Source: Polyangiaceae bacterium
GTDB taxonomy: Bacteria; Myxococcota_A; Polyangia; Polyangiales; Polyangiaceae
Direction of reading: 5' to 3'
DNA length: 37,210 nt
NCBI GenBank assembly: GCA_020849655.1
Contig: JADLFU010000058.1
Coordinates: 1-37,210 of the forward strand
Shown here: positions 3,061 to 8,556 of the stretch, one piece after another
Layout: each line of letters starts with the position of its first letter
Position numbering within the stretch: the stretch's first letter is position 1
Notes under the pieces: generated by a model
What the model was told of the DNA's origin: nothing
Database searches by the model: none
What the model saw: the letters and a program-made list of their open reading frames with translations, nothing else
Position numbers and translations under genes: made by a program

Positions 3061-3087
3061 TTGACGCGGCGATCGCGACCCGATAGC
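3061..3087 (+). promoter_or_regulatory. Candidate sigma70-type promoter for the cobalamin riboswitch transcript
   Basis: TTGACG (3061-3066) is followed after 15 bases by GATAGC (3082-3087). Transcription would begin near 3095, about 30 bases before the riboswitch P1 strand. The -35 is good; the -10 and spacer are weak. The rest of 3001-3123 holds nothing else I can support. Confidence 0.35.
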
Positions 3088-3123
3088 CGTCGCGCGCCCT
3101 CGCCCTCTGCGGGGGCGTTGACT

Positions 3124-3325
3124 GGTGACGGTCGCGGCGCCTCGCAGACGGGGCCTCGCGCGCAAGAGGGAAGCCGGCGCGAGTCCGGCAGAGCCCCCGC
3201 TACGGTGACCGAGGACGACGGCTCCGAGTACGCCACTGCACGCTCCGCTTGCCCGATCCGGGCCACGGGGCCGCGGGAAGGCGGAGCCCGAGGAAGAGAC
3301 GGAACTCCGGAGACCTGCCGACACC
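3124..3325 (+). promoter_or_regulatory. Cobalamin (adenosylcobalamin-type) riboswitch
   Basis: The conserved core is easy to read: GAGGGAAGCCGG (3167-3178), the AGTCCGG arm and GCCCCCGC (3193-3200), the B12-box-like GCCACTG (3232-3238), GGGAAGGCGGAGCCCG (3275-3290) and the 3' signature GGAGACCTGCC (3309-3319). A closing P1 helix is possible between GGTGACGGT (3124-3132) and GCCGACACC (3317-3325) with one A-A mismatch. This RNA class lowers expression of the downstream gene when cobalamin is bound. It lies 37 bases before the start of a TonB-dependent receptor gene, which identifies that receptor as a vitamin B12 or cobinamide transporter. The exact ends are estimated. Confidence 0.95.
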
Positions 3326-3335
3326 GACCCGAAGC

Positions 3336-3350
3336 GCCGCGGGGTGCGGC
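3336..3350 (+). promoter_or_regulatory. Short hairpin next to the Shine-Dalgarno of the B12 receptor
   Basis: GCCGC (3336-3340) and GCGGC (3346-3350) form a five-pair stem around GGGGT. A clear Shine-Dalgarno GGAAGG (3353-3358) follows two bases later and lies four bases before the ATG at 3363. The position suits an expression platform that controls ribosome access, since no U-rich terminator is visible between the riboswitch and the gene. Confidence 0.4.
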
Positions 3351-3362
3351 TCGGAAGGTCCG

Positions 3363-5300
3363 ATGCGCCCGCTCCTTCCCCCTCTCCTGTCGCTCTCGCT
3401 GCTCGCGCCGTCGGTCGCCCGCGCCGACGACGTCACCGTGTCCGGCGAGCGGCCCTTCGCTCCCCGCGCGAGCCGCGACGCCACGGCGCCCGCCACCGTC
3501 CTCGATCGGGCGCGCCTCTCGTCACCGGGGGTGACCGCGGCCGAGGTGCTGCGCGGCGCACCCGGCGTGAGCGTCGTCGAGGGGGGCGCCGGCGCCGTCT
3601 CGACCGCGGCGGTCCGCGGCGCGACCTCCGCCGAGACCCCGGTGTACCTCGCGGGCGTCCGCATCAACGACGACGTCGGCGGCGCGGCGGATCTCTCGGA
3701 GCTCCCGCTCTTCGCGATGGAGCGCGCCGAGATCTACCGCGGGCACGCGCCGCTCGTCGCCGATCGCCTCGGGATCGGCGGCGCGATCTTCTTCGATCCG
3801 CGGCGCGCCGCCACGACCGAGCTCGCGTACGGCGCGACCGTCGGCAGCTTCGGCAAGCGCGAGTCGCGCCTCCTCGCGTCGCTCGGCACCCGTCGCGACG
3901 GCGCGCTCCTGGCCCTCCGCGCGGCCCGGAGCACGAACGATTTCTCTTACATCGACGACGGCGGCACGGCGTTCGATCCGAGGGACGACCGCGCGCGGCG
4001 GCGCGCGAACGCGGACGTCTCGCTGGTCGACGCGTGGGCGGTCGGCCGAGCGTCGCTGCCGCGCGGGGGGCACGTCGATCTCGTCGGCGCTCACGCGGAG
4101 CGCTCATCTGGCGTGCCGGGCAACGCGCTCGTGCCCTCACGTCACGCGCGCCTCCACGCGACCCGGACGCTGCTCGCGGCGCGCAGCGCGCTCGGGGAGC
4201 GGGAGGGCGTGGAGGTCTCGCTGACGACGTCCGCCCTCGCGGCCACGTCGCGCTACGACGATCCTGGGTTCGAGCTCGCGCTCGGCGCGCCCTCCGCGAC
4301 GACCCGCGGCGCGCGTGTGGAGCAGGCCGCCGACGTCCGCGCGGAGATCGGCGAGGCCTCCACGCTCCGCGTCGACGCGCGCGTCGCCCACGAGCGGCTG
4401 ACCGTGGAGACCACGAGCGCCGCGGCGTCGCGCCGGCTCTTCTCGCGCGCCGGCGCGGCGTGGACGTCGCGGCTCGGCGAGGCGGTGAGGATCGACGCGC
4501 TCGCCGCGATCGAGTGCCACGGCACCTCGACCGCCGCCGAGCCCGCGCGCCTGTGCGACACGACGGCCCCGTCGGCGCGCGCCCGGGGCACGCTCCAGGC
4601 CGGCGCGGTGTCGGTGTTCGGCGGCGCGGGGCGGTACGCGCGCGTGCCGACGCTGGGAGAGCGCTTCGGGCTCACCGGTCCGGTCCGCGGGAACCCGGCG
4701 CTCTCGCCGGAGCGGGGCCGGATCGTCGACGCAGGCCTGCGCGCGGAGGCCGGTCGCGGCGGCGCGCGCGCCGCGGTCGAGCTCTCCGCGTTCGCGCAGT
4801 GGACGACCGATCTCGTCACCTCCGAGCGCTCGTCGCTCGGCTTCGTGCGGCCGTACAACACCGACGGCGCGCGGACGCTCGGCGCGGAGCTCGACGCGCG
4901 CGCGGAGGCGTCGCGGCACCTCTCGCTCGCGATCGCCGCGACGGCGGTCGATCCGCGCACGACGACCGAGGGGCGCGCGGGAGACCTCGTGCCGTTCCGC
5001 TCGCGGCTGACCCTCTCGCCGTCGGCGCGCGCCGCGGTGGGCCCGGCGGGCGCGCTCGACGAGCTCGCGCTGACAGCTAGGTACGTATACCAATCCAGCC
5101 GCGTCGCAGACCGTCGTGGACTCGTGGTGCTGCCGGCGCAGGCGCGGGTGGATCTCGAGCTGACCGCGAGCTTCGCGCAGGCGCGGCTCCAGCTCGCGGG
5201 CCGCGTCGCGAACGCGCTCGGCGCGCGCCTCGTCGACACGCTGGGCTTCCCGCTGCCGGGTCGCGCGTACTTCGCGTCGTTCGAGGTGGTCGGGCCGTGA
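3363..5300 (+). CDS. TonB-dependent outer-membrane receptor, predicted vitamin B12 transporter (BtuB-like)
   Basis: The protein has 645 residues. A signal peptide (MRPLLPPLLSLSLLAPSVARA) is followed at once by a TonB-box-like DDVTVSGERP at 22-31. A plug domain follows, with APATVLDRARL, VLRGAPGVSVVEGGAG, the RGA segment and VYLAGVRINDD. A long Arg/Tyr-rich barrel then ends in an aromatic-rich strand (GRAYFASFEVVGP). The family brings scarce ligands such as siderophores, B12 and sugars across the outer membrane using TonB energy. The ligand call rests on the cobalamin riboswitch directly upstream, not on the barrel sequence. The start at 3363 fits both the signal peptide and the GGAAGG Shine-Dalgarno. 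The stop overlaps the GTG of the propeller lipoprotein, so both sit under the same riboswitch. No BtuFCD genes are in the window. Confidence 0.88.
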   Translation: MRPLLPPLLSLSLLAPSVARADDVTVSGERPFAPRASRDATAPATVLDRARLSSPGVTAAEVLRGAPGVSVVEGGAGAVSTAAVRGATSAETPVYLAGVRINDDVGGAADLSELPLFAMERAEIYRGHAPLVADRLGIGGAIFFDPRRAATTELAYGATVGSFGKRESRLLASLGTRRDGALLALRAARSTNDFSYIDDGGTAFDPRDDRARRRANADVSLVDAWAVGRASLPRGGHVDLVGAHAERSSGVPGNALVPSRHARLHATRTLLAARSALGEREGVEVSLTTSALAATSRYDDPGFELALGAPSATTRGARVEQAADVRAEIGEASTLRVDARVAHERLTVETTSAAASRRLFSRAGAAWTSRLGEAVRIDALAAIECHGTSTAAEPARLCDTTAPSARARGTLQAGAVSVFGGAGRYARVPTLGERFGLTGPVRGNPALSPERGRIVDAGLRAEAGRGGARAAVELSAFAQWTTDLVTSERSSLGFVRPYNTDGARTLGAELDARAEASRHLSLAIAATAVDPRTTTEGRAGDLVPFRSRLTLSPSARAAVGPAGALDELALTARYVYQSSRVADRRGLVVLPAQARVDLELTASFAQARLQLAGRVANALGARLVDTLGFPLPGRAYFASFEVVGP

Positions 5301-6475
5301 AGCGGGTCGCCGCGCTCTCCTTCGCGCTGTCGCTGCTCTCGTGCGGCGCCGAGCGTCCACCGCCCGACACCGGCGGCGCCTCCCTGCCGGAGACGGCGTG
5401 CGGGCGCGGCGTCGTGGTGGTCGCGAGCGACTACGCGTCGTCGTCCGTCGCGCTCGCGGACACGTCGGGCGCGATCGCGTCGGAGTCCGTGCTGTCGAGC
5501 GCCTCGGCGGCCGCGGGCCTCGGCGCCCCGCTGTCCGGCGACGTCACCGCGCCGTCGTCGCGGCCCCCGAGCGGCCGCGTCGTGCTGCTCGATCGGTACC
5601 CGGCGAGCGTCGTCACGTGGGTCGATCCCGAGACCGGCGCCGTCGAGGGCCAGCTCGCGCTGTCGCCTGGCGTCGCGACCAACCCGCAGGACTACCTCGA
5701 GCTCGACGACCAGCGCGCGTACATCACCCGCTACGACTCCGCGGCCTCTTCCGCCGTCGCGCCCCTGTCGCGCGGCGGTGACGTGCTCGTCGTGGATCAC
5801 CGCGCGCACGCGGCCGTCCGCTCGATCGCGCTCCCGTCGGAGGGCGCGCTCCTGCCGCGACCGACGAGGCTGGTGCGCGCGGGCGCGTTCGTCGTCGTGC
5901 CGCTCGAGCGCATGGATCGCGGGTTCCAGCAGGCGGGGGACGGCGCGGTCGTCGGGATCGATCCCGCGACCGACACGATCGCGTGGGCGCTCTCCCTACC
6001 CGGCCTCGCGAGCGGCGGCGGCGCGGCCGTGGCCGCCGCGGGCGCGACGCTCGTCGTCTCGTGCTCGGGCCGGTTCGCCGACGGCCTCGCCGCGCAGCGC
6101 GCGCGCGCCGGAGTGGCCGTGTTCGACGCGACGCAGACGCCGCCCGCGCTCGTCGCCGTCCACCGCACGCCCGCGCCGCCGAGCCCGTTCGTCGATCTCG
6201 ACGCCGACGGGCGGATCGTCCTCGTGACGTTCGGGGACGCCGACGCGGGCGTACCCGACGCCCTCGTCCGGCTCGATCCCGCGACGGGCGAGCAGCGCAC
6301 GATCTCGACGTCGACGCCGTTCACCCTCGGGGACGTCCGCTGTCTGCGCGCGTGCGATCGTTGCCTCGTCGCCGACGCCGAGGCGGGCGCCTTGCTCGTC
6401 GTCGACGCGGGCGGGGTGTCGCGCGTCCCGGCGCGCTCGCGAGGCCTGCCGCCGCGCTACCTGGGACGCTTCTGA
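5297..6475 (+). CDS. Seven-repeat beta-propeller-like lipoprotein, candidate surface B12-binding partner of the receptor
   Basis: This is a lipoprotein of 392 residues. The signal MKRVAALSFALSLLSC gives a lipobox ending at Cys16. Seven similar strand-turn units follow, each a hydrophobic strand, a variable loop and a V-x-D or L-x-D turn: VVVVASDY...VALAD, VVLLDRYP...WVDPETG, AYITRYDS...VVDHRA, FVVVPLER...GIDPATD, LVVSCSGR...VFDATQ, VLVTFGDA...RLDPATG and CLVADAEA...VVDAGG. This predicts a seven-bladed propeller of the YVTN/quinoprotein type. The GTG start overlaps the receptor stop. Bacteroides BtuG is known as a seven-bladed surface lipoprotein that captures B12 for BtuB. I infer an analogous role here from context; homology is not established. 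Four cysteines in the last 170 residues (SCSGR, RCLRACDRC) are a local oddity. Confidence 0.75.
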   Translation: MKRVAALSFALSLLSCGAERPPPDTGGASLPETACGRGVVVVASDYASSSVALADTSGAIASESVLSSASAAAGLGAPLSGDVTAPSSRPPSGRVVLLDRYPASVVTWVDPETGAVEGQLALSPGVATNPQDYLELDDQRAYITRYDSAASSAVAPLSRGGDVLVVDHRAHAAVRSIALPSEGALLPRPTRLVRAGAFVVVPLERMDRGFQQAGDGAVVGIDPATDTIAWALSLPGLASGGGAAVAAAGATLVVSCSGRFADGLAAQRARAGVAVFDATQTPPALVAVHRTPAPPSPFVDLDADGRIVLVTFGDADAGVPDALVRLDPATGEQRTISTSTPFTLGDVRCLRACDRCLVADAEAGALLVVDAGGVSRVPARSRGLPPRYLGRF

Positions 6476-6511: not shown

Positions 6512-7750
6512 GTGCACGCGCGCATCCCGACCGAGTTTCGCTACTGGGAGAAGATCGACACGCCGGCCGCCGAGCGCCTGCGGAGCGTGCTCCGCGCGCT
6601 GTTCGGCGTCGATCCGCGGCTGCCCGACGAGACGGTGCGCACGTGGGGCGAGGGCTACTACGAGGCCGATCCGGTCGCCGAGGCCTTCATCGACGAGGTG
6701 ATGATCCCGCGCGGCCAGGCGGAGGGTCGGCGCATGGTCGACCTCGCGCTCGAGTCCGGCGTCGACAGCGTGCCCGACGCGCCCGCGTCGCTGAGGCGCC
6801 TGTTCGAGGAGCAAGAGCGCGCGCCGTCGTGGGTCGATCGCCGCGTCGTCGAGCAGGGCGCGCGCGTGTTCCGCCGCTTCGGCACGCACATGTACAGCTT
6901 CGCGGGCGCGATCACGCTCGAGGGCTACCGCGAGAGCTCGGTCGCGAAGCCGCTCGCCTTCACCGGCGCGTACGCGGGCGAGTCTGCGAACCGCCGCTTC
7001 CTCGAGACGGCGTCGTTCTGGGTCGACGTCTCGGAGCCCGGCGCGCTCGAGCCCGGGGGTCGCGGCCGCGCGACGGCGCTGCGGGTCAGGCTGATGCACG
7101 TCTTCGTGCGCAGGCGGCTGCTCGCGCACCCCGGCTGGGATCTCGACGCGTGGGGGGTGCCGATCAGCCAGTCGGACGCGCTCTTGACGCTGATGGGAGG
7201 GAGCTTCCTCCCGGGCTACGGGCTGCGCGCCCTCGGCTACCGCACGAGCCGCGAGGAGATCGAGGCGATGATGCTGTTCTGGCGCTGGATCGGGCACCTG
7301 ATGGGCGTGCAGCCGCGCTGGTACCCACGCGACGTGAGCGAGGCGCTCGGGCTCGTCTTCACGTCGATGGTGAAGGGCGCGTCGACCTCGGGCGACGACG
7401 GCGTGACGCTCGCGCGCTCCTACCTCGAGTCGTACGGCCCACGAGACGGCGACGACCTCCAGACCCGCCTCGTCAAGCGCTGGGAGCGCGGCCTGCAGCT
7501 CGGGTACGCGAGCTGGTTCGTGCCGCCGCGCACGTACGCGCGGTACGGCCTGCCTCGACCCGGCCTGTGGCGGCTCCACCCGCTCGCGCAGGCGCCGTGG
7601 CACTTCGCGCGAGAGACGGTGCGCCGCCGCGTCCCTGCGGTCGACGAGTGGGTCGATCGACGCGCACGCGCCGAGACGAAGGCGTGGATCTCCGCGCGGC
7701 TCGGCGCGCGCAAGGCCGAGTACCACGCGGCCGAGCGGTTCACGCGGTGA
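6512..7750 (+). CDS. MpaB/DUF2236-family (rubber-oxygenase-like) oxygenase
   Basis: This protein of 412 residues has no signal peptide. The sequence RFGTHMYSFAGAITLEGYRE, the central RVRLMHVFVRRRLL helix near 191, DLDAWGVPISQSDALLTLM and the later WRWIGHLMGVQPRW match the ER-bound oxygenase mpaB / latex-clearing-protein (DUF2236) family. Characterised members use b-type haem to cleave prenyl chains or polyisoprene with O2. The likely haem ligands are among the conserved His residues, but I cannot assign them without a structure. The substrate is unknown; isoprenoid side chains are a family-based guess. The GTG start has no Shine-Dalgarno. The stop overlaps the GTG of the kinase gene (GTGA), so both proteins are probably made in a coupled way. 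Confidence 0.7.
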   Translation: MHARIPTEFRYWEKIDTPAAERLRSVLRALFGVDPRLPDETVRTWGEGYYEADPVAEAFIDEVMIPRGQAEGRRMVDLALESGVDSVPDAPASLRRLFEEQERAPSWVDRRVVEQGARVFRRFGTHMYSFAGAITLEGYRESSVAKPLAFTGAYAGESANRRFLETASFWVDVSEPGALEPGGRGRATALRVRLMHVFVRRRLLAHPGWDLDAWGVPISQSDALLTLMGGSFLPGYGLRALGYRTSREEIEAMMLFWRWIGHLMGVQPRWYPRDVSEALGLVFTSMVKGASTSGDDGVTLARSYLESYGPRDGDDLQTRLVKRWERGLQLGYASWFVPPRTYARYGLPRPGLWRLHPLAQAPWHFARETVRRRVPAVDEWVDRRARAETKAWISARLGARKAEYHAAERFTR

Positions 7751-8556
7751 CCTTGCCCCCCGACGTCCCCGGCGAGGTGCTCGGGCACCGCGTGATCGGG
7801 GTGCTCGGCGCGGGCGCGACGGCGCGCGTGCTGCTCGCCGTGACGCCCGATGGCAGAGAGGTGGCGCTCAAGCGCGTGCACCCGCACCTCGCCTCGAACC
7901 CGGACGCGCGGGCTCGCCTGCGCCGCGAGGCGGAGTACCTGAGCCACGTGGCGGGCGACGGGGTGGTCGAGCTGCTCCGTGTGCTCGAGGACGAGCGCGA
8001 CCTCGCGCTCGCGCTGCAGCTCGAGCGCGGCCCGTCGCTCGCGCGGGTGCTCGACGAGGCGCGGGCCCAGAGCAGCGCCATCCCGACGGAGCGCGCCCTC
8101 GCCTGGGCGCGCTCGACGCTCCGCGCGCTCGCGCGCATGCACGCGGCGGGCGTCGTCCACGCCGACGTGAACCCACGCAACGTGCTCACACGCGACGAGG
8201 TCGCCGTCGTCCTCGTCGATTTCGGCTTCGCCGGGCCGCCGTCCGGCTCGGGCCCGATACGAGGGACGATCGGCTACCTCGCGCCCGAGCAAGCAGCGGG
8301 CGGCGCCTCGCCTGCCTCCGACGTCTACGCGGCCGGGGTGATGCTCTGGGAGCTGCTCCGACTCGAGCGCTACCGCCAGACCACCAACCCCGCCGCGCTG
8401 CTCGCCGCGCTACCAGGTGAGGCGCCGCGGGCCCTCGACGTCGGGCGCCCCGACCTCGCGCCGTACGCTGGGCCGGTCCGTGCGCTGCTCGCGACCGCTC
8501 CCCTCGCCCGCCCGACCGCGCGCGACGCCGCGGCGCTCCTCTCGGGTTTTGGTTGA
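7747..8556 (+). CDS. Small cytoplasmic Ser/Thr protein kinase with altered catalytic loop
   Basis: A bare Hanks-type kinase domain of 269 residues, without a membrane segment or sensor domain. It shows a glycine loop (GVLGAGATARVLLA, 18-31), the VAIK-type lysine K42 (VALKRV), an alpha-C Glu in RREAEYL, the catalytic loop HADVNPRN (138-145), DFG at 158-160 and an APE segment (LAPEQA). The activation loop is short. Compared with canonical HRDLKPxN, Arg is Ala and the phosphate-contacting Lys is Asn, while Asp140 and Asn145 remain. Activity is therefore possible but not certain. The GTG start overlaps the oxygenase stop. Kinases of this kind are abundant in myxobacteria; the substrate is unknown, though the coupled oxygenase is an obvious candidate partner. 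Confidence 0.85.
   Translation: MTLPPDVPGEVLGHRVIGVLGAGATARVLLAVTPDGREVALKRVHPHLASNPDARARLRREAEYLSHVAGDGVVELLRVLEDERDLALALQLERGPSLARVLDEARAQSSAIPTERALAWARSTLRALARMHAAGVVHADVNPRNVLTRDEVAVVLVDFGFAGPPSGSGPIRGTIGYLAPEQAAGGASPASDVYAAGVMLWELLRLERYRQTTNPAALLAALPGEAPRALDVGRPDLAPYAGPVRALLATAPLARPTARDAAALLSGFG

Follow-up and report, generated by a model that had tools for sequence, protein, structure and literature searches.

Does any bacterium outside Bacteroidetes pair a BtuB-type receptor with a lipoprotein that works like BtuG? The question is raised by a locus of Polyangiaceae bacterium (assembly GCA_020849655.1), in which a cobalamin riboswitch precedes the gene of a TonB-dependent receptor and the end of this gene overlaps the start of a lipoprotein gene. 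The window, i.e., the whole stretch of DNA analyzed, comprises 37,210 nucleotides (nt) of contig JADLFU010000058.1, and coordinates are positions in it on the forward strand. We consider it likely that the locus is a B12 (corrinoid) uptake operon composed of a BtuB-type receptor and a corrinoid-capturing propeller lid. The lipoprotein most likely works as BtuG does with BtuB, by analogy with which it would be exposed on the surface, bind corrinoids, and form a complex with the receptor. The features of the locus are as follows (aa, amino acids):

3118-3336, plus strand: cobalamin riboswitch aptamer (Rfam RF00174, model positions 1-189 of 189)
3363-5300, plus strand (ATG 3363, stop 5300): BtuB-type TonB-dependent receptor of the outer membrane (645 aa; plug and barrel)
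5297-5300, plus strand: GTGA overlap of receptor stop and lipoprotein start
5297-6475, plus strand (GTG 5297, stop 6475): predicted BtuG-like seven-bladed propeller lipoprotein, 392 aa, by lipobox, fold, and homologues
5411-6469, plus strand: propeller proper, aa 39-391, from strands assigned by DSSP in the AlphaFold2 (AF2) model
5429-5782, plus strand: most conserved stretch, aa 45-162, blades 1-3, candidate ligand face, from alignment columns

The riboswitch and the BtuB-class receptor

The initial annotation had placed a cobalamin riboswitch in front of a TonB-dependent receptor and had let the stop of the receptor overlap the start of the lipoprotein. Both statements proved correct: the RF00174 match at 3118-3336 scored 51.8 bits (E = 2.9e-10), above the gathering threshold of 31.5 bits, and the overlap is the GTGA at 5297-5300, which suggests that translation of the two genes is coupled. 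The 3' end of the riboswitch lies 26 nt before the start codon of the receptor. Folding of the leader RNA found no excess stability (z = +1.0) and identified no expression platform. RF00174 was also detected elsewhere in the genome of the window and in related genomes.

The receptor has a signal peptide, a TonB-box-like DVTVSG, a plug at aa 38-141 (PF07715, E = 2.3e-15), and a barrel at aa 195-617 (PF00593, E = 1.3e-18). Its best phmmer matches in the PDB were all BtuB proteins, from either Bacteroides or E. coli, with E values around 1e-13, and the next classes were far weaker. A family profile built from ten receptors of homologous loci had E. coli BtuB as its top PDB match at E = 1e-47, followed by Bacteroides BtuB3, BtuB2, and BtuB1 at 1e-34 to 1e-28, and the colicin I receptor (CirA) came only at E = 4e-24, behind the BtuB group. 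The B12-receptor model TIGR01779 was the top NCBIfam match of the window receptor and was matched by all ten receptors compared; the window receptor scored below the equivalog cut-off of this model (82.3 versus 599.7 bits). Some of the relatives' receptors also match MxcH, the myxochelin receptor model. As judged from sequence, the receptor is of the BtuB class, and by TIGR01779 it is not a close BtuB orthologue.

A predicted seven-bladed propeller lipoprotein

The lipoprotein starts with the signal MKRVAALSFALSLLSC, which contains the lipobox LLSC and a predicted lipidated Cys16, and the position of this Cys is nearly invariant across the family. Searched alone against Pfam, NCBIfam, and PDB sequences, the protein gave no match of weight. 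The reading frame is real, with homologues at 34-44% identity over nearly its full length. The AF2 model, built with 43 homologues from named loci, had a mean predicted local distance difference test score (pLDDT) of 95.0 and a predicted template modeling score (pTM) of 0.92, and its strand list reads as a closed propeller of seven blades with four strands each, in which the C-terminal strand 386-391 closes blade 1. The assignment of the blades, listed here in aa, is our own and was made from the DSSP strands of the model:

Blade 1: 39-67 and 386-391
Blade 2: 81-121
Blade 3: 130-178
Blade 4: 193-238
Blade 5: 240-289
Blade 6: 295-339
Blade 7: 344-378

The seven strand-turn units noticed in the initial annotation correspond to these blades, and a fold other than a propeller, named beforehand as grounds for rejecting the idea, did not appear. 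The comparison with BtuG structures that had been proposed placed BtuG nearest in Foldseek: ranks 1-9 against the PDB were all BtuG structures (BT1954, BT2095, and complexes), with E values of 1.9e-11 to 1.6e-10 and identities of 13-14%, and rank 10 was the YVTN propeller 1l0q. VIA-align gave a Z score of 31.8 for BtuG2 (314 residues, 2.9 Å) and of 29-32 for other BtuG chains. According to the model, the lipoprotein has the fold of a BtuG-type propeller, although the fold alone does not decide descent.

Conservation points to one face of this propeller. Among 60 homologues, D45, G81, Q119, N129, D132, R145, G160, D162, C256, and G258 are invariant, and within aa 45-162 the conserved positions are D45, G81-D82, D99-R100, Q119, N129-P-x-D132, R145, and G160-D162. 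When residues are assigned to faces by loop, 36 of the 40 with the highest conservation fall on the face made up of the BC and DA loops, and blades 1-3 hold 29 of them; the loops of this face are more conserved than those of the other face (P = 0.0003). Propellers often keep a face of the BC/DA type conserved for structural reasons. In BtuG2, every hydrogen bond to B12 comes from blades 1-4 (PMC10404256). A negatively charged conserved face, as in BtuG2, was also looked for and was not reproduced by a crude count of loop charges.

Recurrence of the pair in Myxococcota

A search for the pair beside cobalamin riboswitches in Myxococcota had been proposed together with the initial annotation, and the pair turned out to be co-conserved. 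Homologues of the lipoprotein are present in 75 of the 379 Myxococcota genomes sampled, about a fifth. When bacteria and archaea, represented by one genome per species, were scanned for patterns from the family alignment A2, 57 loci emerged, at a sensitivity limited to the patterns used. By their titles nearly all of them belong to Myxococcota or "delta" lineages, and the cultured carriers include Minicystis rosea (L109:7968-9233) and Sorangium cellulosum. The single protein gave no match over genome contigs, and an alignment of 60 sequences proved too diverse for scanning.

Cobalamin riboswitches occur in 327 of the 379 genomes and are so common in the phylum that co-occurrence at the genome level is uninformative and adjacency is what counts. 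Fifty of 78 propeller copies have a cobalamin riboswitch 0-4.5 kb upstream on the same strand, where roughly 0.05 would be expected by chance according to our own arithmetic with about 1.7 riboswitches per genome; 12 of the 50 stand directly behind it (<700 bases). For 42 of 61 copies, the surrounding region that was retrieved included a receptor on the same strand, often with a spacing of less than 50 bases or an overlap, and at least four loci (L068, L069, L082, and L092) have separate riboswitches for the receptor and for the propeller lipoprotein. Four receptor-lipoprotein loci had no detected riboswitch, and none was found there even at relaxed thresholds. The most complete arrangement is seen in one relative (L044:4834-10891, minus strand), where the operon runs from a cobalamin riboswitch through a BtuH-like (LIC_13355-like) lipoprotein with a cysteine-rich N terminus, a BtuB-type receptor, and the propeller lipoprotein to a Peripla_BP_2 (BtuF-like) protein.

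Other propellers were met in the course of this survey. At L057:8460-9878 (minus strand; G318:C254), a second, divergent propeller lipoprotein is encoded between the riboswitch, which it follows directly, and the first one, so that this locus contains two propellers and a BtuH-like protein. At L098:1336-2604 (G260:C993), a different protein, a YVTN-type propeller that weakly matches BtuG1 (8ptf, E = 5e-4) and PF16819, stands behind a cobalamin riboswitch and represents a second propeller class in the B12 loci of the phylum. One carrier of the propeller family (L147, CAMDBH010000008.1) is titled Klebsiella pneumoniae; it equals genome G106, which is placed in the phylum of the window, and is probably a mislabelled metagenome-assembled genome.

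A BtuH-like companion and the use of B12

The genome of the window (6.56 Mb, 97% complete) encodes MetH (E = 1e-124) and two Peripla_BP_2 proteins, which are candidates for BtuF-type binding proteins. CbiC had no match in this draft genome, and one missing gene is no proof of auxotrophy. With MetH encoded and CbiC undetected, the bacterium plausibly needs B12 from outside, and this gene content fits an organism that uses and imports B12. Corrinoids set free by prey may be a source, as the initial annotation had supposed.

The same genome holds three cobalamin riboswitches, all of which precede genes or operons encoding lipoproteins. Sixty-four bases behind the second riboswitch (C233:36168-36292, minus strand) begins a lipoprotein gene (L002:715-1446, minus strand), the product of which carries the motif DGPGPDFIVFENPF and is distantly related to the LIC_13355 family; NF033170 (LIC_13355) was matched by 20 of 22 relatives of this companion. 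The companion family is present in 46 of the 75 propeller-bearing genomes and absent from the other 29. It often precedes a receptor, and 30 of its 47 copies are located no more than 5 kb downstream of a cobalamin riboswitch. An AF2 model of the member from Minicystis rosea (pLDDT 76.5) had its best VIA matches in BtuH2 (7biz; Z = 13.7, 18% identity), with the next non-BtuH entry at Z = 9.3, and it matched the BtuH domain of BtuG1 (8blw_B, residues 390-660) with a Z score of 13.1 at 21% identity. The companion family is predicted from this model to share the B12-binding fold of BtuH, which was earlier described as having no known structural homologues. Profile searches up to E = 1 or E = 10 returned no BtuH chain. 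BtuH2 holds B12 with Asn399 among other residues, and its Phe401 contacts B12; the companion family has an invariant N-x-F (N150 and F152 in the Minicystis rosea locus L109) that is spaced in the same way and may be taken as a lead only. The LIC_13355 family has been tested in Leptospira as a host-binding lipoprotein (PMC11891782). Because its relatives in Myxococcota are linked to riboswitches and have a predicted BtuH fold, we suggest that lipoproteins of the LIC_13355 type may have a corrinoid-binding role.

The third riboswitch (C261, L001:1501-1636) precedes a lipoprotein (L001:1759-2405) that has a long Gly-rich linker and ends at the contig edge. In the window itself, an ABC1-kinase-type gene lies on the opposite strand upstream of the riboswitch operon. 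An MPAB/Lcp-type oxygenase gene (6512-7750) starts 36 bases 3' of the lipoprotein gene, and behind it lies a frame for a protein kinase (about 7750-8556); neither has a known tie to B12.

Proposed mechanism and alternative explanations

We suggest that the operon works as follows. At low B12, the riboswitch would let the transcript be expressed, a direction of regulation that we infer from the riboswitch class, and the receptor and, via the overlapping start, the lipoprotein would be made together. The receptor would be inserted in the outer membrane, and the propeller, anchored by Cys16, may cap its extracellular mouth as a capture lid. Located on the surface and in complex with the receptor, the propeller would use its conserved face in blades 1-3 to catch corrinoids and would pass them to the receptor, which would import them with energy supplied through TonB; a BtuF-type protein would complete the route to enzymes such as MetH.

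Several results weigh against this mechanism. The BtuG family profile PF16819 (DUF5074) has no match in the genome of the window, and among 60 relatives only two matched it, with E values no better than 0.03; of the 379 Myxococcota genomes, four have a match above the cut-off, and none of the matches listed is at a propeller locus. The profile of the propeller family had YncE as its best match in the PDB, at E = 0.05, and revealed no kinship with BtuG. In VIA-align, the score of BtuG2 is tied with that of the archaeal YVTN propeller 1l0q (Z = 32.0), and unrelated seven-bladed proteins, such as nitrous-oxide reductase and those of the lactonase type, reach Z scores of 28-29, only 2-3 below BtuG. 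At two near-invariant positions the window copy deviates, with Ala in place of N149 and Gly in place of C240. The crude count of loop charges gave 0 for the conserved face and -9 for the other face of this copy, and -8.8 and -9.1, respectively, for the family, unlike BtuG2. Solitary Polyangiaceae copies (L036, L037, L040, L041, and L043) have neither a receptor nor a riboswitch nearby, and surface export in Myxococcota is not readable from sequence.

Some of these results could be explained if the propeller belonged to the B12 regulon and partnered the receptor without binding corrinoids, as a lid, a gating scaffold, or a binder of a carrier protein, and capture were left to the BtuH-like lipoprotein encoded elsewhere. 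The lack of charge asymmetry, the sequence of the propeller, which is not that of BtuG, and the presence of a second riboswitch-controlled lipoprotein with a predicted BtuH fold in the genome would all suit such a division of labor. However, conservation is concentrated on one face, in blades 1-3, and not along the rim, there are propeller copies directly behind a riboswitch of their own, and no BtuH-like protein accompanies the propeller in 29 of the 75 genomes, and we regard this explanation as unlikely. Even less probable in our judgment is a lipoprotein that faces the periplasm, similar to YncE or BamB, and acts after transport as a carrier of corrinoid or cobalt or as a corrinoid-acting enzyme. 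Although the best sequence-profile match is indeed YncE (a weak one), the surface localization of lipoproteins is not predictable in this phylum, and Asp occupies position +2 in 6 of the 73 copies scored, BtuF-type periplasmic binding proteins are already encoded, and the best Foldseek matches are BtuG proteins of the cell surface. It would be most surprising if the receptor moved another substrate, e.g., a siderophore, heme, or a cobalt chelate, which the propeller would serve, with the riboswitch providing regulation only. The score of the receptor far below the TIGR01779 cut-off (82 versus 600 bits) and the MxcH matches of some relatives leave some room for this idea, whereas the BtuB group came first in every comparison (about 23 orders of magnitude ahead in the profile search), the link to the riboswitch is phylum-wide, and one relative has a BtuF-like neighbour.

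Beyond the B12 uptake operon itself, it is possible, though somewhat short of probable, that Myxococcota own a complete surface system for B12 capture, parallel to that of gut Bacteroidetes and composed of the receptor, the BtuG-like lid, and the BtuH-like lipoprotein, and that this lid and this lipoprotein have deep ancestors in common with the two domains of BtuG1. If this is true, BtuG is not an invention of Bacteroidetes, and the Leptospira lipoprotein family LIC_13355 is a corrinoid-binding family. The presence of a propeller partner of BtuB in about a fifth of the sampled Myxococcota would mean that the capture of corrinoids outside the cell by a receptor lid is older or was invented more than once, and it would then not be a gut adaptation. 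An unannotated lipoprotein family would gain a function that can be tested in the cultured Minicystis rosea and Sorangium cellulosum.

Comparison with known systems

An eLife study of 2018 (PMC6143338) reported that BtuG is confined to Bacteroidetes and considered competition in the gut when discussing its origin. In the literature searched, which left many journals outside, we found no report of a propeller partner of BtuB in Myxococcota, and the query combining BtuG with Myxococc- gave only a paper on DUF4465. The initial annotation had proposed a counterpart of BtuB/BtuG without obvious sequence kinship with BtuG. The lack of kinship was borne out by the profile searches with PF16819 and against the PDB; the counterpart holds as a way of working, in view of the propeller fold and the co-conserved pair, and not as membership of the BtuG family (DUF5074). 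By the DUF5074 profile the window lipoprotein is not a BtuG family member, and "BtuG-like" is the proper name for it. The absent sequence kinship weakly favours an independent origin, which the initial annotation had considered possible. Common descent with BtuG may nevertheless apply, because BtuG is the closest Foldseek match and the companion matches the BtuH fold, and the joint presence of predicted BtuG-like and BtuH-like folds weighs against an independent origin.

YncE and the YVTN propellers of the surface layer (3vgz and 1l0q) share with the lipoprotein the general seven-bladed fold, with the VIA Z score of 1l0q equal to that of BtuG and a weak profile match to YncE. We know of no cobalamin-riboswitch receptor operon of which YncE or the surface-layer YVTN protein is a part. 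The BtuB-BtuF-BtuCD system of E. coli resembles the present one in its receptor class and in the BtuF-like protein encoded downstream in one relative (L044), but it has no propeller lipoprotein as a partner.

The closest parallels are BtuB2-BtuG2 and BtuB3-BtuG3 of Bacteroides thetaiotaomicron (PMC6143338 and PMC10404256), which likewise have a riboswitch locus, adjoining genes for receptor and lipoprotein, a receptor of the BtuB class, and a seven-bladed propeller lipoprotein, and conservation in the present family favours those blades with which BtuG2 holds B12. In contrast to these pairs, the present lipoprotein lacks the DUF5074 signature and the surface-export signal of Bacteroidetes, has only 13-14% identity, and comes from another phylum; the charge polarity of BtuG2 is not reproduced in the crude count, and the binding of corrinoids is predicted here. 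BtuG1 (8blw_B) fuses a propeller to a BtuH domain, whereas in Myxococcota the two predicted folds are found in separate riboswitch-linked lipoproteins, often at separate loci. With BtuB/BtuG of Bacteroides already known, what is most likely new here is a BtuG-like partner of BtuB outside Bacteroidetes that recurs across Myxococcota.

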